Positions 1,221-32,384 of a DNA stretch of 37,540 nt are shown here, piece after piece. The first letter of the stretch is position 1, and every line of letters begins with the position of its first letter. The notes beneath the pieces are model-generated. The model had not been told where the DNA came from. It was given only the letters and a program-made list of their open reading frames with translations, and did no database searches. The DNA is from a virus: IMG/VR virus record IMGVR_UViG_3300001450_000101, positions 1-37,540 of that record; one strand, 5' to 3'. Position numbers and translations under genes: made by a program.

Positions 1221-1476
1221 AATTTAGTTATTTTAGTTTCGAGATGTCAATGAACGATAATTAATTACTTAGATTAATTACCCTTACAATATACAAAAAA
1301 ATAGTTATATACAATCATTGTAGATAATAATAAAATATAGTTATTTCTTATGGTGTTGATAATCAATATAAGTTAATCTTATGAAGTAATAAATGGATAT
1401 AGATTCAAATGGAATCCAGGTCGGAGATATTTTCTACTTTCTCGATTGATTCAATGTAATATAGGTTGATAATTCA
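1221..1476. other. Divergent intergenic region
   Basis: About 256 bases separate the minus-strand operon from the first plus-strand ORF. The region is very AT-rich and must contain the leftward promoter. I find no perfect TAnnTTTG box on the minus strand. GTTATA occurs at 1304-1309. An 18-codon plus-strand ORF (1393-1449) is present but has no independent support. Confidence 0.4.
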
Positions 1477-1623
1477 ATGAATGGACTAAAGTCATTAATT
1501 CAACGTAAAATGCGGTATACGTGGATTGATTACACTACTTACATAAATTCAAAGGGATATAAAAAAAACCCCTTAGAAAGAACAGGGCGTTTACGTGCGT
1601 GGAACTTTGCTAAAGGATTTTAA
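1477..1623 (+). CDS. Small basic hypothetical protein (48 aa)
   Basis: An ATG ORF of 48 codons begins MNGLKSLIQRKMRYTWIDYT and ends with an Arg/aromatic segment (RTGRLRAWNFAKGF). Its composition is more protein-like than the surrounding AT-rich DNA: it uses GCG, CGG, CGT and TGG codons. It lies alone between the minus-strand operon and the tail operon. No family is recognised. Confidence 0.4.
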   Translation: MNGLKSLIQRKMRYTWIDYTTYINSKGYKKNPLERTGRLRAWNFAKGF

Positions 1624-1752
1624 TAACTAAATTAATATGAACTCAGAAATGATCTGATTGAATATAATTTTGGTGAATCTATATATTTATCAAACAAAGA
1701 TAAGATAAACTATTTATTATTACAAAATATTCTTTAATATAACTACTTTTTC

Positions 1753-1760
1753 TATTTTTG
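1753..1760 (+). promoter_or_regulatory. Bacteroidetes-type -7 box ahead of the tail operon
   Basis: TATTTTTG matches the Bacteroidetes -7 consensus TAnnTTTG and lies 37 nt upstream of the ATG at 1797. No good -33 TTTG element is visible. A second motif, AAGTTATA (1784-1791), sits just before the start codon and recurs upstream of other structural genes. Confidence 0.4.
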
Positions 1761-1796
1761 TTATACGACAAATTACAAGACTAAAGTTATATAAGT

Positions 1797-2513
1797 ATGA
1801 TTAGAGAAATAAAAGTAAAAGTACCTAGAGAGTTATCTGATGTCAAGCTAAAGGAATATCAAAAGTACGTTAAGATCGTAGACTTTAATAGTGAGGGAGA
1901 ACATAGTAAAGAAAAAATAGACTTTGCTAATATGAAAATGCTCGAATACTTTTGTGGTATAGATTTAAAGGAAGCGTATGAACTACCTATGACTGCATAC
2001 TCCAACATAATAAACCACCTAGCGACAATATTTAAAGAAGAAACACCTTTACAACAAAGATTTACTATGATTGATCCTAATGGTAAAGAGGTAGAGTTTG
2101 GTTTTATACCTAAGATAGATGACATTACACTAGGTGAATTTATAGATTTAGAAAAATACATACAAAATTGGGAAGATATGCATAAAGCTATGGCTATACT
2201 ATATAGACCTATAATATTTAAAACAGGGAATTTATATGAAATAGAGGATTATGAGGGTAGTGAAAAGTATTCTGACATTATGTTAGATGCTCCAGTGAGT
2301 GTTCCGATAGGTGCTAATGTTTTTTTTTATCGTTTAGGGAAAGAGTTGTCGAGTCATTTGATTCACTCTTTGGTGGATCAAGTGAACAAGGACTTGACTC
2401 TACGTCAAACTTTGGAACAAAATGGGGTTGGTATCAATCAGTTTACGCAATCGCTAAAGGAGATGTCACGCAGTTTGAAAACATTACAAAATTACCCTTA
2501 TTTCAATGTCTAA
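1797..2513 (+). CDS. Tail assembly chaperone, short (zero-frame) form
   Basis: This 238-aa protein is the first gene of the tail operon. Tail assembly chaperones bind the tape measure protein during tail-tube assembly and are often made in two forms by ribosomal frameshifting. The zero frame continues for 61 codons past a T9 run and ends in a plausible sequence (GVGINQFTQSLKEMSRSLKT). The -1 frame over the same DNA contains KWGWYQSVYAIAKGDV and KLPLFQCLTWLEFEKEK, which I recognise as typical of the C-terminal part of phage tail chaperones. The gene lies 8.6 kb from the tape measure gene, which is unusual. The assignment rests mainly on the downstream frame. Confidence 0.6.
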   Translation: MIREIKVKVPRELSDVKLKEYQKYVKIVDFNSEGEHSKEKIDFANMKMLEYFCGIDLKEAYELPMTAYSNIINHLATIFKEETPLQQRFTMIDPNGKEVEFGFIPKIDDITLGEFIDLEKYIQNWEDMHKAMAILYRPIIFKTGNLYEIEDYEGSEKYSDIMLDAPVSVPIGANVFFYRLGKELSSHLIHSLVDQVNKDLTLRQTLEQNGVGINQFTQSLKEMSRSLKTLQNYPYFNV

Positions 2514-2581
2514 CTTGGTTGGAGTTTGAAAAGGAAAAGCAAGAATTAGAATCTAATATGATTAAAAAACACACAAGATGA
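1797..2581 (+). CDS. Tail assembly chaperone, long form by -1 frameshift (predicted)
   Basis: If ribosomes slip back one base on T TTT TTT at 2321-2327, translation resumes with TTA at 2327. It then reads 84 codons (LSFRERVVESFDSLFGG, then KWGWYQSVYAIAKGDV, TKLPLFQCLTWLEFE) and stops at TGA 2579-2581. The product would be 261 aa. The -1 frame is open from the T run to that stop and its stop overlaps the ATG of the next gene at 2578, as expected for a natural gene boundary. A homopolymer sequencing error that removed one T is an alternative that would give the same long protein without frameshifting. Confidence 0.55.
2320..2328 (+). promoter_or_regulatory. T9 slippery run, candidate -1 frameshift site
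   Basis: Nine consecutive T follow AATG in the zero-frame codons GTT TTT TTT TAT. The heptamer T TTT TTT (2321-2327) fits X XXY YYZ and allows both Phe tRNAs to re-pair in the -1 frame. It sits 177 codons into the tail chaperone gene, just where the -1 frame becomes informative. No clear downstream pseudoknot was identified by eye. Confidence 0.55.
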
Positions 2582-3039
2582 GACAAGTATATACAATACT
2601 AGATAAATTAAAAACATTATTAAGAGCAAATGGAATAACTAAATATGTTACGTTTGGTGATCTACTACAAATTGATCTGAACAAAACAACTATATACCCA
2701 TTAGCACATATAGTGTTTGGAGATGTAACATTTAATGATAGAATAATGAACGCATCAATACAAGTCTTATGTTTAGATATAGTAGATGACAAAAATACAA
2801 AAGAAGATGAAGATGAATTCTTTGGAAATGATAATCTACAAGATGTACTTAACACACAATTACAAGTAGTTAATCTATTACAACAAGAAATGAGAAGAGG
2901 AGATACTTTTTCGGAGAACTTTCAAATAACTACATCAGTAATCGCCAATCCAATAATCGACTCATATGAGAATGAACTAGCAGGGTGGGGTGTAACAATA
3001 GAAATAGAAGTACCTACTAATGAATTATCTCTTTGCTAA
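2578..3039 (+). CDS. Probable tail completion/terminator-like protein (153 aa)
   Basis: The ATG overlaps the stop of the -1 frame of the chaperone gene. The protein mixes an N-terminal helix (MRQVYTILDKLKTLLRANG), a beta-rich core (YPLAHIVFGDVTF, IQVLCLDIVDD) and an acidic loop (DDKNTKEDEDEFFGND). It ends in a strand pair (GWGVTIEIEVPTNE). Size, fold pattern and place next to a neck-like gene fit a tail terminator or tail completion protein that caps the tail tube. The family is not named with confidence, so this remains a structural inference. Confidence 0.45.
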   Translation: MRQVYTILDKLKTLLRANGITKYVTFGDLLQIDLNKTTIYPLAHIVFGDVTFNDRIMNASIQVLCLDIVDDKNTKEDEDEFFGNDNLQDVLNTQLQVVNLLQQEMRRGDTFSENFQITTSVIANPIIDSYENELAGWGVTIEIEVPTNELSLC

Positions 3040-3545
3040 TGATATATGAATTCACAGCACAAGCATTAAATAAACTCAGATCAAAAATACAAGCTGATTT
3101 AAAAGGTCAATTAGATGTAACTAGAGGTACACCACCATCAAAATTAAATGCAAGTGGTAATTTAAAGAGGAGTATGAATAGTGTTGTTTTTGTAAAAAAC
3201 CAAGATATATTCTTAAATTTCTATGCTGCTAAATATTTCAATGAAGTTGATAAAGGTGGAAATCCTAGAAAAGTAGATAGAGGTAAAATAGAGAGTTGGA
3301 TTAGTGCAAAAAATATAATTTCTAATTATGCTAATAATACAATTGAAGATTTAGCATATTTAATAATGAAGAAAATAGAACGTGATGGTACTATTGCAAG
3401 ATTTGGTGGTAGAAATAGAGGTGCTAATATTATAGATTACATTGATCAAAAATATTATGTATCAATAACAAAAGCCATAGAAGCAAGTTATAATATAGAC
3501 TTAGAAAAACATCTAAATAAAATATCAATAAATGGCAGTAAATAA
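3039..3545 (+). CDS. HK97 gp10-like neck/head-tail joining protein (probable)
   Basis: I place the start at the ATG at 3039, which overlaps the TAA of the preceding gene (TAATG), rather than the TTG at 3033. The 168-aa protein has an N-terminal helix, a basic stretch with SGNLKRSMNSVVFV, then FYAAKYFNEVDKGG. The last motif (residues around a Tyr, Asp and Gly triad before a helix) resembles the core of gp10-like neck and tail-completion proteins. The C-terminus is helical and basic. Neighbouring genes are the tail completion candidate and a giant tail protein, which supports a structural role. Confidence 0.45.
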   Translation: MIYEFTAQALNKLRSKIQADLKGQLDVTRGTPPSKLNASGNLKRSMNSVVFVKNQDIFLNFYAAKYFNEVDKGGNPRKVDRGKIESWISAKNIISNYANNTIEDLAYLIMKKIERDGTIARFGGRNRGANIIDYIDQKYYVSITKAIEASYNIDLEKHLNKISINGSK

Positions 3546-6500
3546 AGTAAATACTAGAAGTCCATACTACGTTGTAGCTTCAGGATCTGAGGGATCAACA
3601 ACAGGTAATGCATCAGAAACTCAAGAAGAAAGAGAAGCTAAACAAGAAATATATTTATTAAAGATAGTACAAGTAGTAAATAATGTGGAGAAAAATAGTC
3701 CAGGTGAGGGAACTTCTAATGCCAACATCACACTTCGTGCTATACCTGTAAACTTTACATCTAATGGAACTTATACTTGGACTGGTGGAAACGCTGCTGC
3801 TGCAGGAACGACATCAGACATTACATTTAAAGAAACTTTAGGTAGTGGAGTAGCCAATCAAGAATTTAGTTATGGTTGTAGTACGTTAGATTCTGATGGC
3901 AATACAATTACTGCTACAGCTTTTAAAGTATCTTGGGCGACAGCAACTCAATATACTGCAACGCTTACTATTGCAAATGGAATATTACCATCAATATCAT
4001 CAGTTGGTTATAGTGGTACTGTTACGAAGTCATCAAGTATACAAGCACAAGAAGTGGTTTCTTTAGAAAAATTAAACCCTGAACTCTTTGAAGTAAAAGG
4101 TCGTCAAGGTGATAGTTATAGTTTTGTTATTGCTTTAACACTATCAACTAATTATAATGCGACATCAGCTTTAGCAATATCAGTTGCTAGTTTTAGTGGA
4201 ACATTTGGTAGTGCCAATGTAGCATTAGCATCTTCGTTAACAGGTACACTTGCTTTAAAAGAAACATTTATATTAACACGAAGTGTTACAAGTGCAACTG
4301 AGGGTGATGCATTTACGATAGACCTTACAACAACAAACTTAGTAGACAATACACCTGTGCCATTTACAATAACAGGTGTTTCTAAAGATGATTTAGTTAG
4401 GAATGGATTAACAGGATCATTCCAAATATTTGAAAATGAAGCAAGTGAAACATTTCAAGCAGTTAAAGATACTTTAAGCGAACAACCTTATGAAACTTTT
4501 ACATTAACATTAAACGATATTAGTCCAACAATATCTACATCTGTAAAAATATATGATGAAGTTGCTCAAGTAACAACAACGTCAATTGATGTTTCCCCTA
4601 TTGGAAGAGCAAGTGATGAATTAGCTTGTTTAGATAGTGCGTCAGAAAAAGCATACTTTACTTTACTAGATGGTCAAGATGCTTTAGGAAATGGAGTTAT
4701 TCTATTTTCAGATCAATCACTACAAACTCCTTATGCAAGTGATGGAAAATATTATAAAATAGGTACTAATCACAATGGAATAATTGGAGAAGTAGCTAAT
4801 GGAAGAATTAGTGGTTATGTCGAGTGTGCTGCAGATATTGTGGTAAAGGTTATTGAAGAATCTGAAACAATACCAAATCCATCTATGATTTCATCAACAT
4901 CTGTATCTGTTCCTGGTTCTCGTGGAATCGATGCTTGTGAGCAAAATGCAGACACAGAAATATATTATGATAATTCTATAACTAAAGGAACTTTGTTATA
5001 TACACAAAAAGATGAAGATGATAATTTATCAAGTGTGTTTGGTGGGGTTGACAAATGGCATAAATTAACATTATATGACACAAGTGACAATCCACAAGAT
5101 CATTATGCATTAATAACTAGTTATCCCCCTGGTTATGTTTCAAGAATATTTGTTTGTGGAACTGGATTTATACCTGTAACAACAATTACATTAACACCTA
5201 GAGTTACTATTAATATGTCAACTAGTGATGGTAATAATCAAGGATTTGCTTTTGTTTCACAAAGAACTGAATTAACAGCGGTTGTACAAAACATAACAAA
5301 CGCATCTTATCAATGGGAAAAAGGTAGTTCATCAGGTGCAAGTAATATGACTAATATTAGTGGTGCAACATCATCAAGTTTAGTTATAAATGAAGTTGGT
5401 GGTGGTGGAGAAACACAAACAAGTGCTGGTGTTGTTTTTTATAATTGTAAAGTCATTGGAACTGGTGTTACTACTACAAGAGCTGATGTATTTAAAAGTA
5501 TAACTTGGCAATCAAGACCTAGTTTCCCATTAAAATTTGTAGCCGATCCATCTGATAATCGCATTGCAAATAATGCATCTTGTACTGGATCTAGTGTAAC
5601 CATACACGGTGATAGAGATGCAATAACAGCTTTTTGTGTTGGTACTAAATTTTTTGCTAATGCAGATGGAAGTGGTACTTTAACTCGTGGTACTTATTCT
5701 GATAGTACAAGTGGAACAAACAATAATTATAGATACATTGCAGCAAATGGAATCGCAGGTCCTTGTATTAATTATGGTTGTGCAGGTGCGCCGGTAAGTC
5801 AACCTACTACTAACATACAAAAAGTTGCTGTTAAGAGATGTGACAATCAAACAAATGCTGGTAGAACAGAATATATAATATTCAATAATTTTGAACGTCA
5901 GTTAGGTAACATAATAAAGTTAAAGGATTTTGGTCAAACAGGTGGTGAGGGTTGTTATGAGATTATAGAAATATATGCTGATAATTATGATTTACCTACA
6001 CCAAACTTTACTTTAGAAACAACAGACTTTGTACAATTACAACCATTTGGTAAATGTGAAACTTGTGTTGGAGATATTATTGTAGAGGTAGAGGAAGAAC
6101 AAGAAATTATAATTAACCCTAATAAATATTATGGTGCTTATAGATTGTGTGGAAGTACAGGTGGTGCATTAACATATATAGTGTCTGATTCATCTTTACC
6201 AAATGTATTAAGAGTTGGAGCAGATACTACAAAGTGTAGACACACAGTTTACACTCTACATAATAACGAGGGAGATGTTAAAGCATATAGTCCTGACGCT
6301 TTAATTCTTGAAGATTTGTTTTGGATTGAGTTTAATGAGTGTACTACTTGTATTGGTGGTTCTTCTGCTCCTACTATCACTGGTTTACCTTACAAAAGAA
6401 AATACAAACAATGTGATGATGCTTCTAAAACAATAGTATTTGGTCATAGTGAAAATTTAGCTGCAACTGAATGGGCTATAAGATACCCAAGTGTTGTATA

Positions 6501-11030: not shown

Positions 11031-11179
11031 TGATTAAGAATTTAATAGAGTTATTAAAATTAGATAATCACTATGGAGTTAGTGAAAGAGTAGATATTGC
11101 TAAAGGTAAGTATAAAGCTAAAAGTAATCTAAAAGAATTGAATGAACATTTTAAGAGAGTAATCAATGGCAAAAGGTAA
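11030..11179 (+). CDS. Small basic hypothetical protein (49 aa) before the tape measure
   Basis: The ATG overlaps the stop of the hub gene (TAATG). The ORF reads MIKNLIELLKLDNHYGVSER and continues with Lys/Glu-rich helical sequence to NGKR. It overlaps the tape measure start by 14 nt. Both junctions suggest translational coupling in the tail operon. No family is recognised. A helical peptide in this place could assist the tape measure, but that is speculation. Confidence 0.6.
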   Translation: MIKNLIELLKLDNHYGVSERVDIAKGKYKAKSNLKELNEHFKRVINGKR

Positions 11180-13217
11180 AGAATTAATTTATACTATTAG
11201 GGTTATTGACAAAAGCAAAGTTGTCATTGACGAATTAGGTCAAGAAGTACAAACACTTGAACAAGCATTTGTTGAGATTAATAATGAGTTGTCAAAAACT
11301 GATACTCTTCTTGATGGTACAAGAGCAAGTTTCGAAAAGCAAATAAGAACCCTAAAACAACAAAGAGATAATTTAGCAAAAAGTTCTCAAGCATATAACG
11401 AATATAATATAAAGATATTAGCTGTAGAGAACGATATGCGTAAGTTAACTACTGCGACTAAAAATCAAGATCAAGTAAACGCAGATATGATTTCAAACAC
11501 TGGTCTTGCATCTAACACTATTGTAGAATTTGGTAGAACTATATCTGATGCACCATTTGGTATTATTGGTGTAACAAACAACCTTTCAGTAATGGCTACT
11601 AACTTTGAAACGTTAAGTGGTAAAATGGGTGGTACTCGAAACGCATTTAAACTATTAATAAGACAACTTAAAAAAGGTGGTGCTTTTGTATTAGCAATAC
11701 AAGTTGGACTTGCTGCGATGACACTTTTTAGAGATGAGATAACTGAGTTCTTTATGGGTACTAAAAAAGCTGAGGAAGCTGTAGTAGACTTAAAAGACGA
11801 ATTAGTAAACACAAATAAAGTATTAAGAGAGTATATTAAAACACTAAGAAATGTAAATGTTGAGTTAGCAGATCAATTAGAGTTAGTTAGTTTTATAAGA
11901 GAAGATTATAGTGAATTAGATAGAGCATTTAAAGATTCTAATGCTACTCAAGAAGAACAAGTAGCAATAACAAAAAACTATTTAATACTACAATCACGTT
12001 TAAGTACAGTAAACAAAGAAATAAATAAAGACTTAGAAAACTTAGATGAGAAAAGAGCAAAAGTTATTAGGAATAATGAATTTACAATTAAACAATCTAA
12101 AGAAGAGACAGATGGATACAAAAGAAGAGCTGATGCTTTAGCTGCAGCTAATGTAGAAGAGTCTGATTCAGAATTAAGATTAATGCGAAATTTAATAAAA
12201 ATTGGTGAAAACTATCAAGATTCATTATTTAAAGAGAATGTTAAATTAGGAATAAATGTTGAATTAATAGGTAAACGAAATGAGTTGATGCGTTTATCAG
12301 CAAAAGAATTAGCGAATGTTCCAAAAGATATAGAACCTATGACTGGTTTATTTGATGAAGCTGACGATTTTGTATTAGAAGATGATAGAAATGTTATAGA
12401 AAGATTCCTTGATCCTGAACAAGACATTAATGAGTTTGATGCAATTACGTTTGCAGAAGAAAGTGGTTTAGAGGGTGTATTAAATGATTTGAATGATTTT
12501 ATGAAAGAGTATCAAGGGGGAAATGCTCTTGAAAGACTAGAATTAGCAAAACAAGAAGCATTAAATCAATTAACTATTTTATATGATGCACAAGAAGAAG
12601 AGTTAGGTAGTAGAATAGGGTTTAATGAAGATGTAACTAAAATAGAAGAATTTTATGCTGAAAAAAGAGCAAAAATAGCTGATACAGAAAGTCAAGCAAA
12701 AGCAAAAAGTTTACGAGTGTCAGCTCAAGCCGCAGTACAAGTTGGTAAATTACTACAACAATTAGCTGATGGTAATAAAACAGTAGCAATAGCAGGAGTA
12801 GTTATAGAGAAAGCAGGTGCAATAGCTAAAATTGTAGCTAACAAAAGTATTGCTGACGCAGCAGCTTTAAAACTTTTATCAAACCCTGCTACAGCAGCGT
12901 TAGGTGGTGCTTTACTTACTACTAATAAAATAACAGCAGCGACAGGTGTAATTGCAACAACAGCATCAGCGGTTCAAGCTATAAAAGAAATTAGGAATCC
13001 AGAGAGTGCTTCAACGTCAGCTACAAGTATTGCTCAAGCACCAACACCAGTTATACAAGCACCAGCATTTAATGTAGTAGGTGCAACACAAACTAGTCAA
13101 CTAGCACAAACTATCGCTGGAGCTGAAGAGAAACCAATTAAAGCATTTGTAGTAGAAAGTGAAATAACATCAGCTCAAGCATTAGCAAGATCAGTTATAT
13201 TTAATGCTTCTATATAA
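11166..13217 (+). CDS. Tape measure protein (683 aa)
   Basis: The protein fixes tail length and passes through the tail tube at DNA injection. It begins with a beta segment (KELIYTIRVIDKSKVVI), then long charged coiled-coil stretches (about residues 28-95, 200-380 and 450-520). A hydrophobic segment near 170-190 (GGAFVLAIQVGLAAMTLF) and an Ala/Gly/Val-rich region near 535-620 (VAIAGVVIEKAGAIAKIVA) are typical of tape measures. The motif GRTISDAPFGIIGVTNNL is one I associate with Bacteroidetes phage tape measures. At about 1.5 angstrom per residue, the length predicts a tail near 100 nm. The tail chaperone gene is not adjacent. Confidence 0.85.
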   Translation: MAKGKELIYTIRVIDKSKVVIDELGQEVQTLEQAFVEINNELSKTDTLLDGTRASFEKQIRTLKQQRDNLAKSSQAYNEYNIKILAVENDMRKLTTATKNQDQVNADMISNTGLASNTIVEFGRTISDAPFGIIGVTNNLSVMATNFETLSGKMGGTRNAFKLLIRQLKKGGAFVLAIQVGLAAMTLFRDEITEFFMGTKKAEEAVVDLKDELVNTNKVLREYIKTLRNVNVELADQLELVSFIREDYSELDRAFKDSNATQEEQVAITKNYLILQSRLSTVNKEINKDLENLDEKRAKVIRNNEFTIKQSKEETDGYKRRADALAAANVEESDSELRLMRNLIKIGENYQDSLFKENVKLGINVELIGKRNELMRLSAKELANVPKDIEPMTGLFDEADDFVLEDDRNVIERFLDPEQDINEFDAITFAEESGLEGVLNDLNDFMKEYQGGNALERLELAKQEALNQLTILYDAQEEELGSRIGFNEDVTKIEEFYAEKRAKIADTESQAKAKSLRVSAQAAVQVGKLLQQLADGNKTVAIAGVVIEKAGAIAKIVANKSIADAAALKLLSNPATAALGGALLTTNKITAATGVIATTASAVQAIKEIRNPESASTSATSIAQAPTPVIQAPAFNVVGATQTSQLAQTIAGAEEKPIKAFVVESEITSAQALARSVIFNASI

Positions 13218-13248: not shown

Positions 13249-14421
13249 ATGGAAAACGTAATAGAATTAATTATTGATGAAAATAATGAGATTAGTGGAA
13301 TTGAAGCTATATCAATAGTAGAGAACCCTGCTATCGAAGAAGATTTTATTGCACTTAAAGAACACAAAGAAGTAAGATTAGCAGAGGTAGATAAAGAGAA
13401 AAGAATTCTTATGGGGCCTGCGTTAATTCCAAACAAAAAGATATTTAGAAAAGGTGCAAGTGATGATGAAGATTACTATATCTATTTTAGCGAAGATACT
13501 GTTCGTAAAGCATCAGAGTTATTCTTTATAAAAAGCAAACAAAATAATTCAACATATGAACATCAAATTGATCTGAATGGTATGAGTGTTGTAGAATCTT
13601 GGATTATTGATGATCCAACAAATGACAAGTCTAATTCTTATGGATTTGATCTACCTAAAGGAACTTGGATTGTTTCTATGAAAGTTTTGAATGATGATAT
13701 ATGGAAGAAAGTAAAAAATGAGGAAGTTAAAGGTTTTTCGATAGAGGGTTTCTTTGCAGATAAAATGCAAAGCCCTAATGAAAGTATTGAAGAGAAAGCG
13801 TGTGAAAGTTGTCTAAGTGAATTAAATGCTCAATATGAATTATTAGAAGCACTAGAATCTTTAGAAGATAATGTTGAATTAGAAAGTTATGGTGGTTACC
13901 CACAATCAGCTAGAAACAATGCTAAAAGAGCAATTGATCTGAATAAAAAAGTAAACAATAAGTGTGCAACTCAAGTTGGTAAAGTGAGGGCGCAGCAACT
14001 AGCAAGAGGAGAAAAGTTTACATTATCTACTCTTAAACGTATATACTCTTATCTTTCAAGAGCAGGTGCATATTATGACGCAGGTAACAATGAAGCGTGT
14101 GGAACAATATCATATTTATTATGGGGTGGTAAATCAATGTTAAATTGGACTACTTCTAAGTTAAAAGGTCTTGATGCAATTGAAGCATCATCTACTATTA
14201 TAGATGGTAGAGCTGGGTACTCAACGCAAGAAGAAGCAGAGACAGCAGCAGAAGATATGGGTTGTTCAGGGTATCATACACACGAATACGAGGGTGATGT
14301 TTGGTATATGCCTTGTGAGGAACACAATCTCGATGATGATCCTTGTCAAGAAGGGTATGAGCAAATAGGAATGAAACAAAAGAATGGTAGACCAGTTCCT
14401 AATTGTGTTCCAAAAAAATAA
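13249..14421 (+). CDS. XkdF-like prohead protease with C-terminal helical and Cys-rich modules
   Basis: Residues 1-175 carry the XkdF-like serine protease pattern: a substrate-like N-terminus (SGIEAISIVENPAIEEDFI), GPALIPNKKIFR, a HQIDLNGMSVVESWIIDD stretch and LPKGTWIVSMKVLND with VKGFSIEGFFADK. His101 in TYEHQI and Ser168 in KGFSIEG are candidate catalytic residues. A helical module (SARNNAKRAIDLNKK, GKVRAQQLARGEKF, then LLWGGKSMLNW) follows near residues 220-310. This module often accompanies capsid maturation proteases in Bacteroidetes phages. The end is a Cys-rich tail (DMGCSGYHTHEYEG, GRPVPNCVPKK). The gene precedes the scaffold candidate and capsid genes, as expected. RGTTATA-type sequence AAGTTATA lies at 13236-13243. 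Confidence 0.75.
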   Translation: MENVIELIIDENNEISGIEAISIVENPAIEEDFIALKEHKEVRLAEVDKEKRILMGPALIPNKKIFRKGASDDEDYYIYFSEDTVRKASELFFIKSKQNNSTYEHQIDLNGMSVVESWIIDDPTNDKSNSYGFDLPKGTWIVSMKVLNDDIWKKVKNEEVKGFSIEGFFADKMQSPNESIEEKACESCLSELNAQYELLEALESLEDNVELESYGGYPQSARNNAKRAIDLNKKVNNKCATQVGKVRAQQLARGEKFTLSTLKRIYSYLSRAGAYYDAGNNEACGTISYLLWGGKSMLNWTTSKLKGLDAIEASSTIIDGRAGYSTQEEAETAAEDMGCSGYHTHEYEGDVWYMPCEEHNLDDDPCQEGYEQIGMKQKNGRPVPNCVPKK

Positions 14422-26161: not shown

Positions 26162-26271
26162 TTCCCCTAGAGAAAAAGAACTTTCAATATTTACCTGAAC
26201 CAACAATATCTCTATTGAAGTTTGTAACTTTTTTCGTAGATTTACGACTACGTATTTGCAAATATATAAAA

Positions 26272-26949
26272 ATGTCACAAATAGAAAAATTTATAATCAG
26301 ATCAATTCCTAAAGAACAAACTAAAGAATGGTTTAAATATAAACACTATGCAAAACGTATTCCAAGCATTAGATATTCTTTTGGATTATATGATGGTGAT
26401 GAGCTGATAGGAGTTTGTACATATGGTAATCCTATATCAAAAGAGTTGTGTGAAAATGTTTGTGGTAAGAAATATAAACACAATGTATTAGAGTTAAATA
26501 GGTTGGTTGTCAATGATGGCTTACCAAAAAATACTTTATCATATTTTGTAGCACACACTTTTTATAAGTTACCACAACCAATGATTGTTGTTTCATATGC
26601 TGATACAGACCAAAATCATCAAGGTTATATATATCAAGCAACTAATTGGATATACACTGGGTTAACTAAGAACAATTGGGATTGGAAAGAAAAGGGTACT
26701 AATAAACATAGTAGAACTCTAGGTGATAGTTTTAGTACAGAATATATGTATGCACACCCTGAGAGGTTTGAAAGAATACCAAGATCAAGAAAGCATAGAT
26801 ATATAATGATATTAGCTAGTAAACGACTAAAGAAAAGATTAATAAATTTATTAAGTTATAATGTAGAACCTTACCCCAAAGGTAATAACAAACGTTATGA
26901 TGCTAGTCACAATACAACAACACAATTAAATATGTTTAATGGAACTTAG
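26272..26949 (+). CDS. Mom-like DNA modification protein (225 aa)
   Basis: I choose the ATG at 26272 after an A-rich leader rather than the upstream in-frame TTG at 26215. Mom of phage Mu converts adenine to a hypermodified base with a GNAT-type fold and blocks restriction. Motifs fitting this family are KHYAKRIPS, then FGLYDGDELIGVCTYGNP, VLELNRLVVNDGLPKN and VVSYADTDQNHQGYIYQATN followed by WIYTG. The enzyme-like core is residues 20-135, and the rest is a basic tail with QLNMF near the end. It overlaps the next gene by 11 nt. A cytosine methyltransferase at 31734 gives the phage a second modification activity. The exact base made is unknown. Confidence 0.6.
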   Translation: MSQIEKFIIRSIPKEQTKEWFKYKHYAKRIPSIRYSFGLYDGDELIGVCTYGNPISKELCENVCGKKYKHNVLELNRLVVNDGLPKNTLSYFVAHTFYKLPQPMIVVSYADTDQNHQGYIYQATNWIYTGLTKNNWDWKEKGTNKHSRTLGDSFSTEYMYAHPERFERIPRSRKHRYIMILASKRLKKRLINLLSYNVEPYPKGNNKRYDASHNTTTQLNMFNGT

Positions 26950-31733: not shown

Positions 31734-32384
31734 GTGAATGTTTTAGAGTTGTTTGCTGGTAGTTGTACTTTTAGTAAAGAAGCACAAAAATTAGGTCACA
31801 ATACATTTAGTTCTGACTATCGTCAATTTGGTAACGTTGACTATGTTGTTGATGTATTTGACTTTGACATCTCTAAAGTTCCATTTAAACCAGACTTAAT
31901 ATGGGCGAGTCCACCTTGTACTTCTTTTAGCGTCGCAGCACTATGGAGACATTGGGATAAGCTGACACCAATAAGTGACAAAGCAAAGTATGGAGTCAAG
32001 ATGGTACAAAAGACATTAGACATAATTAATGAATTTAATCCTAAGTATTGGTATATGGAAAACCCTAGAGGGAGACTCAGATCATTAGATGTAGTTAAAG
32101 ATTTACCTAGAACAACAATATGGTATTGTAAATATGGTATGACTATGGCTAAACCAACTGATGTTTGGACTAATAATTTGTTTGATCCGATGTTCAATAC
32201 GAGTGGGTGGAAACCTAGACTACAATGTTTTAATGGCAACAAAGATTGTCACCACGAAAAAACAGATCGTGAAGCAAAGAAAGTAAAACAAATGGGTATA
32301 TCTCAAGTAAGTGGGAATCACAATAGAAGTATGTTACCAAAAGAATTATGTATAGAAATATTAAAACAAAGCAAATATGATTAA
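31734..32384 (+). CDS. C5 cytosine DNA methyltransferase (216 aa)
   Basis: The GTG at 31734 gives the standard N-terminus MNVLELFAGSCTFSKEAQKL (SAM-binding motif I). Motif IV is ASPPCTSFS with catalytic Cys62, and motif VI is YMENP (109-111). The protein is short for the family (usual members exceed 300 aa), leaving a minimal target-recognition region after residue 130. Cys and His residues (DCHHEKTD) occur there. It overlaps the RecE-like gene by 8 nt. No cognate restriction gene is seen. An orphan phage methyltransferase usually protects phage DNA from host restriction. Confidence 0.75.
   Translation: MNVLELFAGSCTFSKEAQKLGHNTFSSDYRQFGNVDYVVDVFDFDISKVPFKPDLIWASPPCTSFSVAALWRHWDKLTPISDKAKYGVKMVQKTLDIINEFNPKYWYMENPRGRLRSLDVVKDLPRTTIWYCKYGMTMAKPTDVWTNNLFDPMFNTSGWKPRLQCFNGNKDCHHEKTDREAKKVKQMGISQVSGNHNRSMLPKELCIEILKQSKYD

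Follow-up and report, generated by a model that had tools for sequence, protein, structure and literature searches.

A conserved run of nine or ten T's where two overlapping reading frames meet in a candidate tail-assembly chaperone gene of tailed phages

The slip-site gene and its neighbourhood

The window, by which we mean the whole stretch of DNA analysed, is a virus record of 37,540 nt (IMGVR_UViG_3300001450_000101) that carries the gene set of a tailed phage. One gene in it contains a run of nine T's at which an open reading frame in the -1 phase begins to overlap the frame that starts at the ATG (frame 0). The features of this gene and of the genes that bear on it are as follows.

1797-2513, plus strand: frame 0, from ATG 1797 to TAA 2511-2513, 238 aa
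1797-2327, plus strand: N-terminal domain common to both predicted products, 177 aa, read in frame 0, with the C-end ...GANVFF
2315-2317, plus strand: TAA closing the -1 frame, three bases 5' of the T run
2320-2328, plus strand: T9 run, the slip site, read in frame 0 as GTT TTT TTT TAT
2321-2327, plus strand: in-phase T_TTT_TTT heptamer inside the T9 run, on which a ribosomal reading would rest
2327-2581, plus strand: -1-frame domain, 84 aa, LSFRERVVES...KWGWYQSVY...IKKHTR, stop TGA 2579-2581
2328-2513, plus strand: frame-0 tail past the slip, 61 codons, YRLGKEL...PYFNV, stop TAA 2511-2513
2335-2337, plus strand: TAG in the +1 frame, just past the T9 run
2342-2401, plus strand: predicted RNA hairpin with an inner 14-bp stem at 2354-2385, present only in the window's nearest relatives
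2578-3039, plus strand: next gene, 153 aa, possibly a tail terminator or completion protein
11166-13217, plus strand: candidate tape-measure gene, 683 aa, so called from its length, position and sequence character only

A sequence-only reading of this DNA had described a T9 run within a zero frame of 238 aa, a -1 frame open from that run to a TGA, and about 60 codons past the slip that appear to code in both frames. The run and the zero frame are exact as described, the -1 frame does extend from the run to the TGA at 2579-2581, and both frames are open together for 61 codons. Because the -1 frame is closed by the TAA at 2315-2317, entry into it must occur at the T9 run or 3' of it. From the slip it continues for 84 codons, giving a predicted fusion of 261 aa, and it ends in a TGA that shares the sequence ATGA with the start codon (2578) of the following gene.

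In the two Nonlabens phages, P12024S and P12024L, the slip-site gene comes directly after terL, and it follows terL in five further loci that we checked. Five homologous loci (L018, L049, L114, L195 and L223) show the order terL, slip-site gene, a gene of about 150 aa and a putative gp10-like gene, and the gene that follows in the window has the same neighbour relationship in these five and in L005. Tail chaperones are expected to act on the tape-measure protein. In the window, the candidate tape-measure gene, for which neither Pfam nor NCBIfam gave an informative match, is located about 8.6 kb downstream of the slip-site gene, placing the latter outside the interval between major tail and tape-measure genes.

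Homologues and selection on the two frames

Using tblastn, we identified the cultured phages P12024S and P12024L as homologues at ~25% identity. Their genes 38-39 and 40-41, respectively, contain the same T9 run and both frames, yet are annotated as two separate and unrelated hypothetical proteins directly 3' of terL, an annotation that the present analysis corrects. They differ from the window in this two-gene annotation, in a frame-0 tail of 25 codons only, and in a TAATG overlap; at this overlap in P12024S (L013:4538-4542) a free C-terminal domain could also arise by re-initiation. Scans of contigs added hundreds of further homologues from marine and freshwater viruses, and searches of bacterial genomes found no relatives there. 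Judging from the cultured relative, the hosts are presumably flavobacteria.

At 262 distinct homologous sites, frame 0 continues across the run with no stop and the C-terminal domain is encoded in the -1 frame, and every one of these sites has 9 or 10 T's in unbroken succession. Since homologues as low as ~25% identical in the shared N-terminal domain keep the T run and both frames, chance is excluded as an explanation for the arrangement. An alignment of 91 homologues gave the consensus FRxR..YDxLFG...KWGWYxSIYxLAxGD for the -1 domain, with F3 invariant and R4 near-invariant; the shared N-terminal domain was likewise aligned over 91 homologues. Had the run truly been a T10 or T7 that places the -1 frame directly in line with the ATG, there would be no frame change to explain; among the homologues we found none with such a fusion, and when T10 was sought in the commonest site context (VT10AYNATTTAGG), the 35 family loci retrieved were all unfused. 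L469 is the only family member in which the T run (near 4090-4111) is one T short and frame 0 is broken, reflecting either a mutant or an assembly error, and in L258 a stop lies inside the -1 domain (QFRE*LVQ) just past a T10 run, marking a broken copy or a sequence error.

A stop codon in the +1 frame occurs 2-8 nt past the end of the run in 191 of 191 non-redundant loci, so that loss of one T in the transcript would lead to a short product. We set this regularity aside as evidence, as it may simply follow from the dual coding of LG and FR.

To assess selection, substitutions were counted by frame-0 codon position in 58 independent, non-overlapping homologue pairs. Upstream of the run, the third position changes most (.049/.025/.177 for positions 1/2/3), whereas in the part read only in the -1 frame it is the frame-0 second position, which is the third of the -1 frame, that changes most (.025/.111/.050). 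The overlap follows neither single-frame pattern in full (.031/.069/.063), and pN/pS within it is lower in the -1 frame (0.36) than in frame 0 (0.54). Change that is synonymous in the -1 frame proceeds in the overlap at 0.52 times its level in the -1-only part (95% 0.41-0.69), a drop that is clearest in the first 16 codons of the overlap; towards its 3' end the frame-0 tail is under weaker constraint. In simulations in which the -1 protein was recoded synonymously, frame 0 would be expected to remain open for 12.7 codons past the run, as compared with the 57.7 codons observed on average, and this openness was significant (p<0.05) in 87 of 91 homologues. These patterns indicate that the -1 frame is strongly constrained and the 61-codon frame-0 tail more weakly but clearly so. 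Selection on both frames argues that both are used, which bears out the earlier suggestion of dual coding and runs counter to the possibility, raised with it, that only one frame might be conserved in homologues.

The length of the run and the agent of the frame change

For RNA polymerase to slip, the run must roughly match the RNA:DNA hybrid in length, and -1 slippage by the ribosome needs only an in-phase T_TTT_TTT. Bacterial transcriptional slippage usually involves stretches of 9 A or T (PMC5009743; PMC1088944), and the RNA polymerase of E. coli has a preference for poly(T), with 7 T as the minimum (PMC6260861). To compare sites we noted the codon register of each run as the number of T's before the full TTT codons, the number of such codons and the number of T's after them. 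The 262 sites fall into the registers 2,2,1 (153 sites), 2,2,2 (64), 0,3,1 (28) and 1,2,2 (17); a fifth register, 1,3,0, was found at a single site with an extra Phe (L165, AGT TTT TTT TTT CGT). All five total 9-10 T. Where Ser, Asn or Tyr precedes Phe-Phe, such that a T is lost on the 5' side, the next codon is always TTV and the T is regained on the 3' side. In a targeted scan at the commonest site context we found no family member with a T8 run that keeps the heptamer, whereas independent variation at the two ends would predict ~149, an expectation inflated by shared ancestry, as the polar-residue (1,2,2) sites represent about four lineages.

Long T runs are otherwise avoided in these phages. 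In the other genes of the same loci (526 kb), the depletion grows with run length, the observed and expected numbers being 55 and 85 for 7 T, 7 and 17.6 for 8 T, and 1 and 6.0 for 9 T or more. The slip site has one of the features by which transcriptional slippage sites are recognized, an A/T run of about 9 or more that genes otherwise avoid. It also has the in-phase X_XXY_YYZ heptamer of a -1 ribosomal site, both in the window (2321-2327) and at all homologous sites; what is conserved, however, is the length of the run rather than the heptamer, none of the 262 sites having fewer than 9 T. The conserved unit is not T_TTT_TTT; it is a stretch of 9 T or more, irrespective of codon register. A runs of 9 or more are likewise scarcer in coding sequence than expected (11 against ~49 over all loci), and the avoidance is therefore not specific to T.

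With regard to signals downstream of the run, we found no stimulatory RNA structure common to the whole family. The mean folding z over 91 loci, computed for folds without pseudoknots, lies between -0.1 and -0.2 for the usual spacing past the run, and no conserved base pairs were detected past the run in 39 homologues. The window's own clade does have a strong hairpin 13-25 nt past the run (z about -2.5 to -2.9), the pairs of which are broken by one substitution in L003 and L004 and which is absent from L005. Rfam gave no match in 1500-3200. We also considered intrinsic termination at the T run and rejected it, there being no terminator-like site in 1300-3300.

Comparison of the homologues thus lends good support to a conserved and programmed change of frame, to -1, at the T run; to this extent the proposal of a -1 programmed frameshift at T9 stands. 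That the switch is made by the ribosome on T_TTT_TTT fits the data less well. In such a mechanism, two Phe-tRNAs on TTT TTT would slip back on the heptamer, producing a ratio of products like that of lambda G/GT. This is how tail chaperones are documented to be recoded (PMC5009743), every site has the in-phase heptamer, as must any stretch of at least 9 T, so that on sequence grounds the ribosome may still be the agent, and the window's own clade has a hairpin downstream; moreover, slippage at T9 is assumed for the RNA polymerase of Bacteroidota. However, no site has 7 or 8 T, none of T_TTT_TTC, T_TTT_TTG and T_TTT_TTA ever occurs alone among family sites, and the run stays at 9-10 T by trading T's between its ends. 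In-phase heptamers are, furthermore, common elsewhere (43 in 526 kb) and are avoided no more than out-of-phase runs, and the family as a whole lacks a stimulator. We therefore regard ribosomal frameshifting as a serious alternative that is somewhat improbable. Because of the length rule, the lack of heptamer sites with 7-8 T and the lack of family-wide RNA structure, we favour slippage by RNA polymerase, with moderate confidence.

Two further explanations would dispense with a fused product made by slippage. One is that the T run reflects sequencing or assembly error, or phase variation, and that the true gene has a single frame. Homopolymers are indeed error-prone and mutable, and the member whose run is one T short has a broken frame 0, but two cultured phages show the same arrangement as 262 distinct sites drawn from many samples, no in-line fusion occurs among them, and selection acts on both frames 3' of the run, leaving this explanation with hardly any credence. 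The other is that the -1 domain is made as a separate protein by re-initiation or internal initiation. In the Nonlabens phages the frame-0 stop does overlap an ATG of the -1 frame, annotated as the start of gene P12024S_39. In the window, though, there is no ATG in the -1 frame near the frame-0 stop, conservation of the -1 frame starts at the run, 5' to any such start codon, and no role would be left for the T run; we consider separate synthesis very unlikely.

On the reading that we prefer, slippage by RNA polymerase, one gene would yield two proteins with a common N-terminal domain of 177 residues, an abundant form of 238 aa and a rarer form of 261 aa, the last 84 residues of which would come from the -1 frame. 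The host RNA polymerase would slip at T9 while the RNA:DNA hybrid is all rU:dA and would add one U, and the fraction of mRNAs with U10 would be translated in the normal way into the long form. We infer each of the transcriptional nature of the slip, the added single U, the ratio of the products and, as considered below, the chaperone function.

A candidate tail-assembly chaperone and its known counterparts

AlphaFold2 predicted the N-terminal domain with a mean pLDDT of 90.5 and the -1-frame domain, which is all-helical, with a mean pLDDT of 86.4. For the slip-site gene, Pfam and NCBIfam had no match and profile searches of solved structures returned nothing; the fold of the -1 domain had no useful match in the PDB. 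PHROG 166 ('tail protein') was matched by 28 of 91 members, at best with 1.7e-5. The predicted N-terminal fold resembles the HK97 chaperone 2ob9, its second match in the PDB, at a level that is not significant (E 0.61, probability 0.21), and in a viral library it strongly matched uncharacterised phage proteins and weakly matched two annotated chaperones (E 0.13-0.27). These weak fold and family matches, together with the two-frame architecture and the neighbourhood of tail genes, make a lambda G/GT-type tail-assembly chaperone our best guess, one that we consider likely from the sequences and predicted models. The earlier assignment as a tail chaperone gene is accordingly plausible, but the gene is not in the classical place beside the tape-measure gene. 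If the assignment is correct, the 238- and 261-aa forms would be a chaperone pair working like lambda gpG/gpGT.

Frameshifted tail chaperones are textbook ribosomal recoding, and tail chaperones that slip are already known. As in lambda gpG/gpGT (PMC5009743), a single gene within a phage tail gene cluster would give two products, here both predicted from sequence, with a common N-terminal part and a C-terminal extension in the -1 frame. Unlike the lambda gene, the present gene follows terL instead of lying between the major tail and tape-measure genes, and its slip site is a homopolymer without a family-wide stimulator. The 61-codon overlap also contrasts with annotated actinophage cases, in which the average distance from slip to stop is 26 nt (PMC10885494). 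The cases of bacterial transcriptional slippage (Thermus dnaX, Shigella T3SS genes and IS elements) resemble the present one in having an A/T run of ~9, a fused long product, no need of an RNA stimulator and avoidance of such runs in other genes (PMC5009743, PMC1088944); they differ in that ours is a tail gene of a phage, known here from sequence alone.

What is new is a widespread unannotated family, a length rule for the homopolymer that points to RNA polymerase, and an unusually long overlap of two frames. In the open-access literature searched, we came across no description of the frame transition in this family, nor of a tail-chaperone gene with transcriptional slippage; one paper briefly notes what looks like slippage in a prophage tape-measure gene (PMC6095929). 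For the proposal as a whole, that in a widespread clade of flavobacterial tailed phages RNA polymerase slips at an obligate run of 9-10 T and thereby sets the ratio of chaperone forms, with about 60 codons read in both frames, we would put the chances at slightly better than even. If it is true, the ratio of the proteins has been conserved while the machine producing it was swapped, as is known for dnaX in bacteria, and the 9-T rule makes the slippage reading directly testable.

A chaperone-like gene of Flavobacterium phage 6H (L330:10040-10927, minus strand) matches the N-terminal fold and changes frame near its 3' end, at a T6 run and beyond. We dropped it as a judge of the slip motif, since at least two shifts are needed. 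Elsewhere in the window, 26257-26946 encodes a Mom DNA-modification family protein (Pfam PF25680, E 4e-41) and 31734-32384 is a C-5 cytosine methylase-like gene, on the basis of which the phage probably modifies its own DNA. A prohead protease (Peptidase_S78_2) encoded at 13249-14421 has a C-terminal extension with DUF3721.
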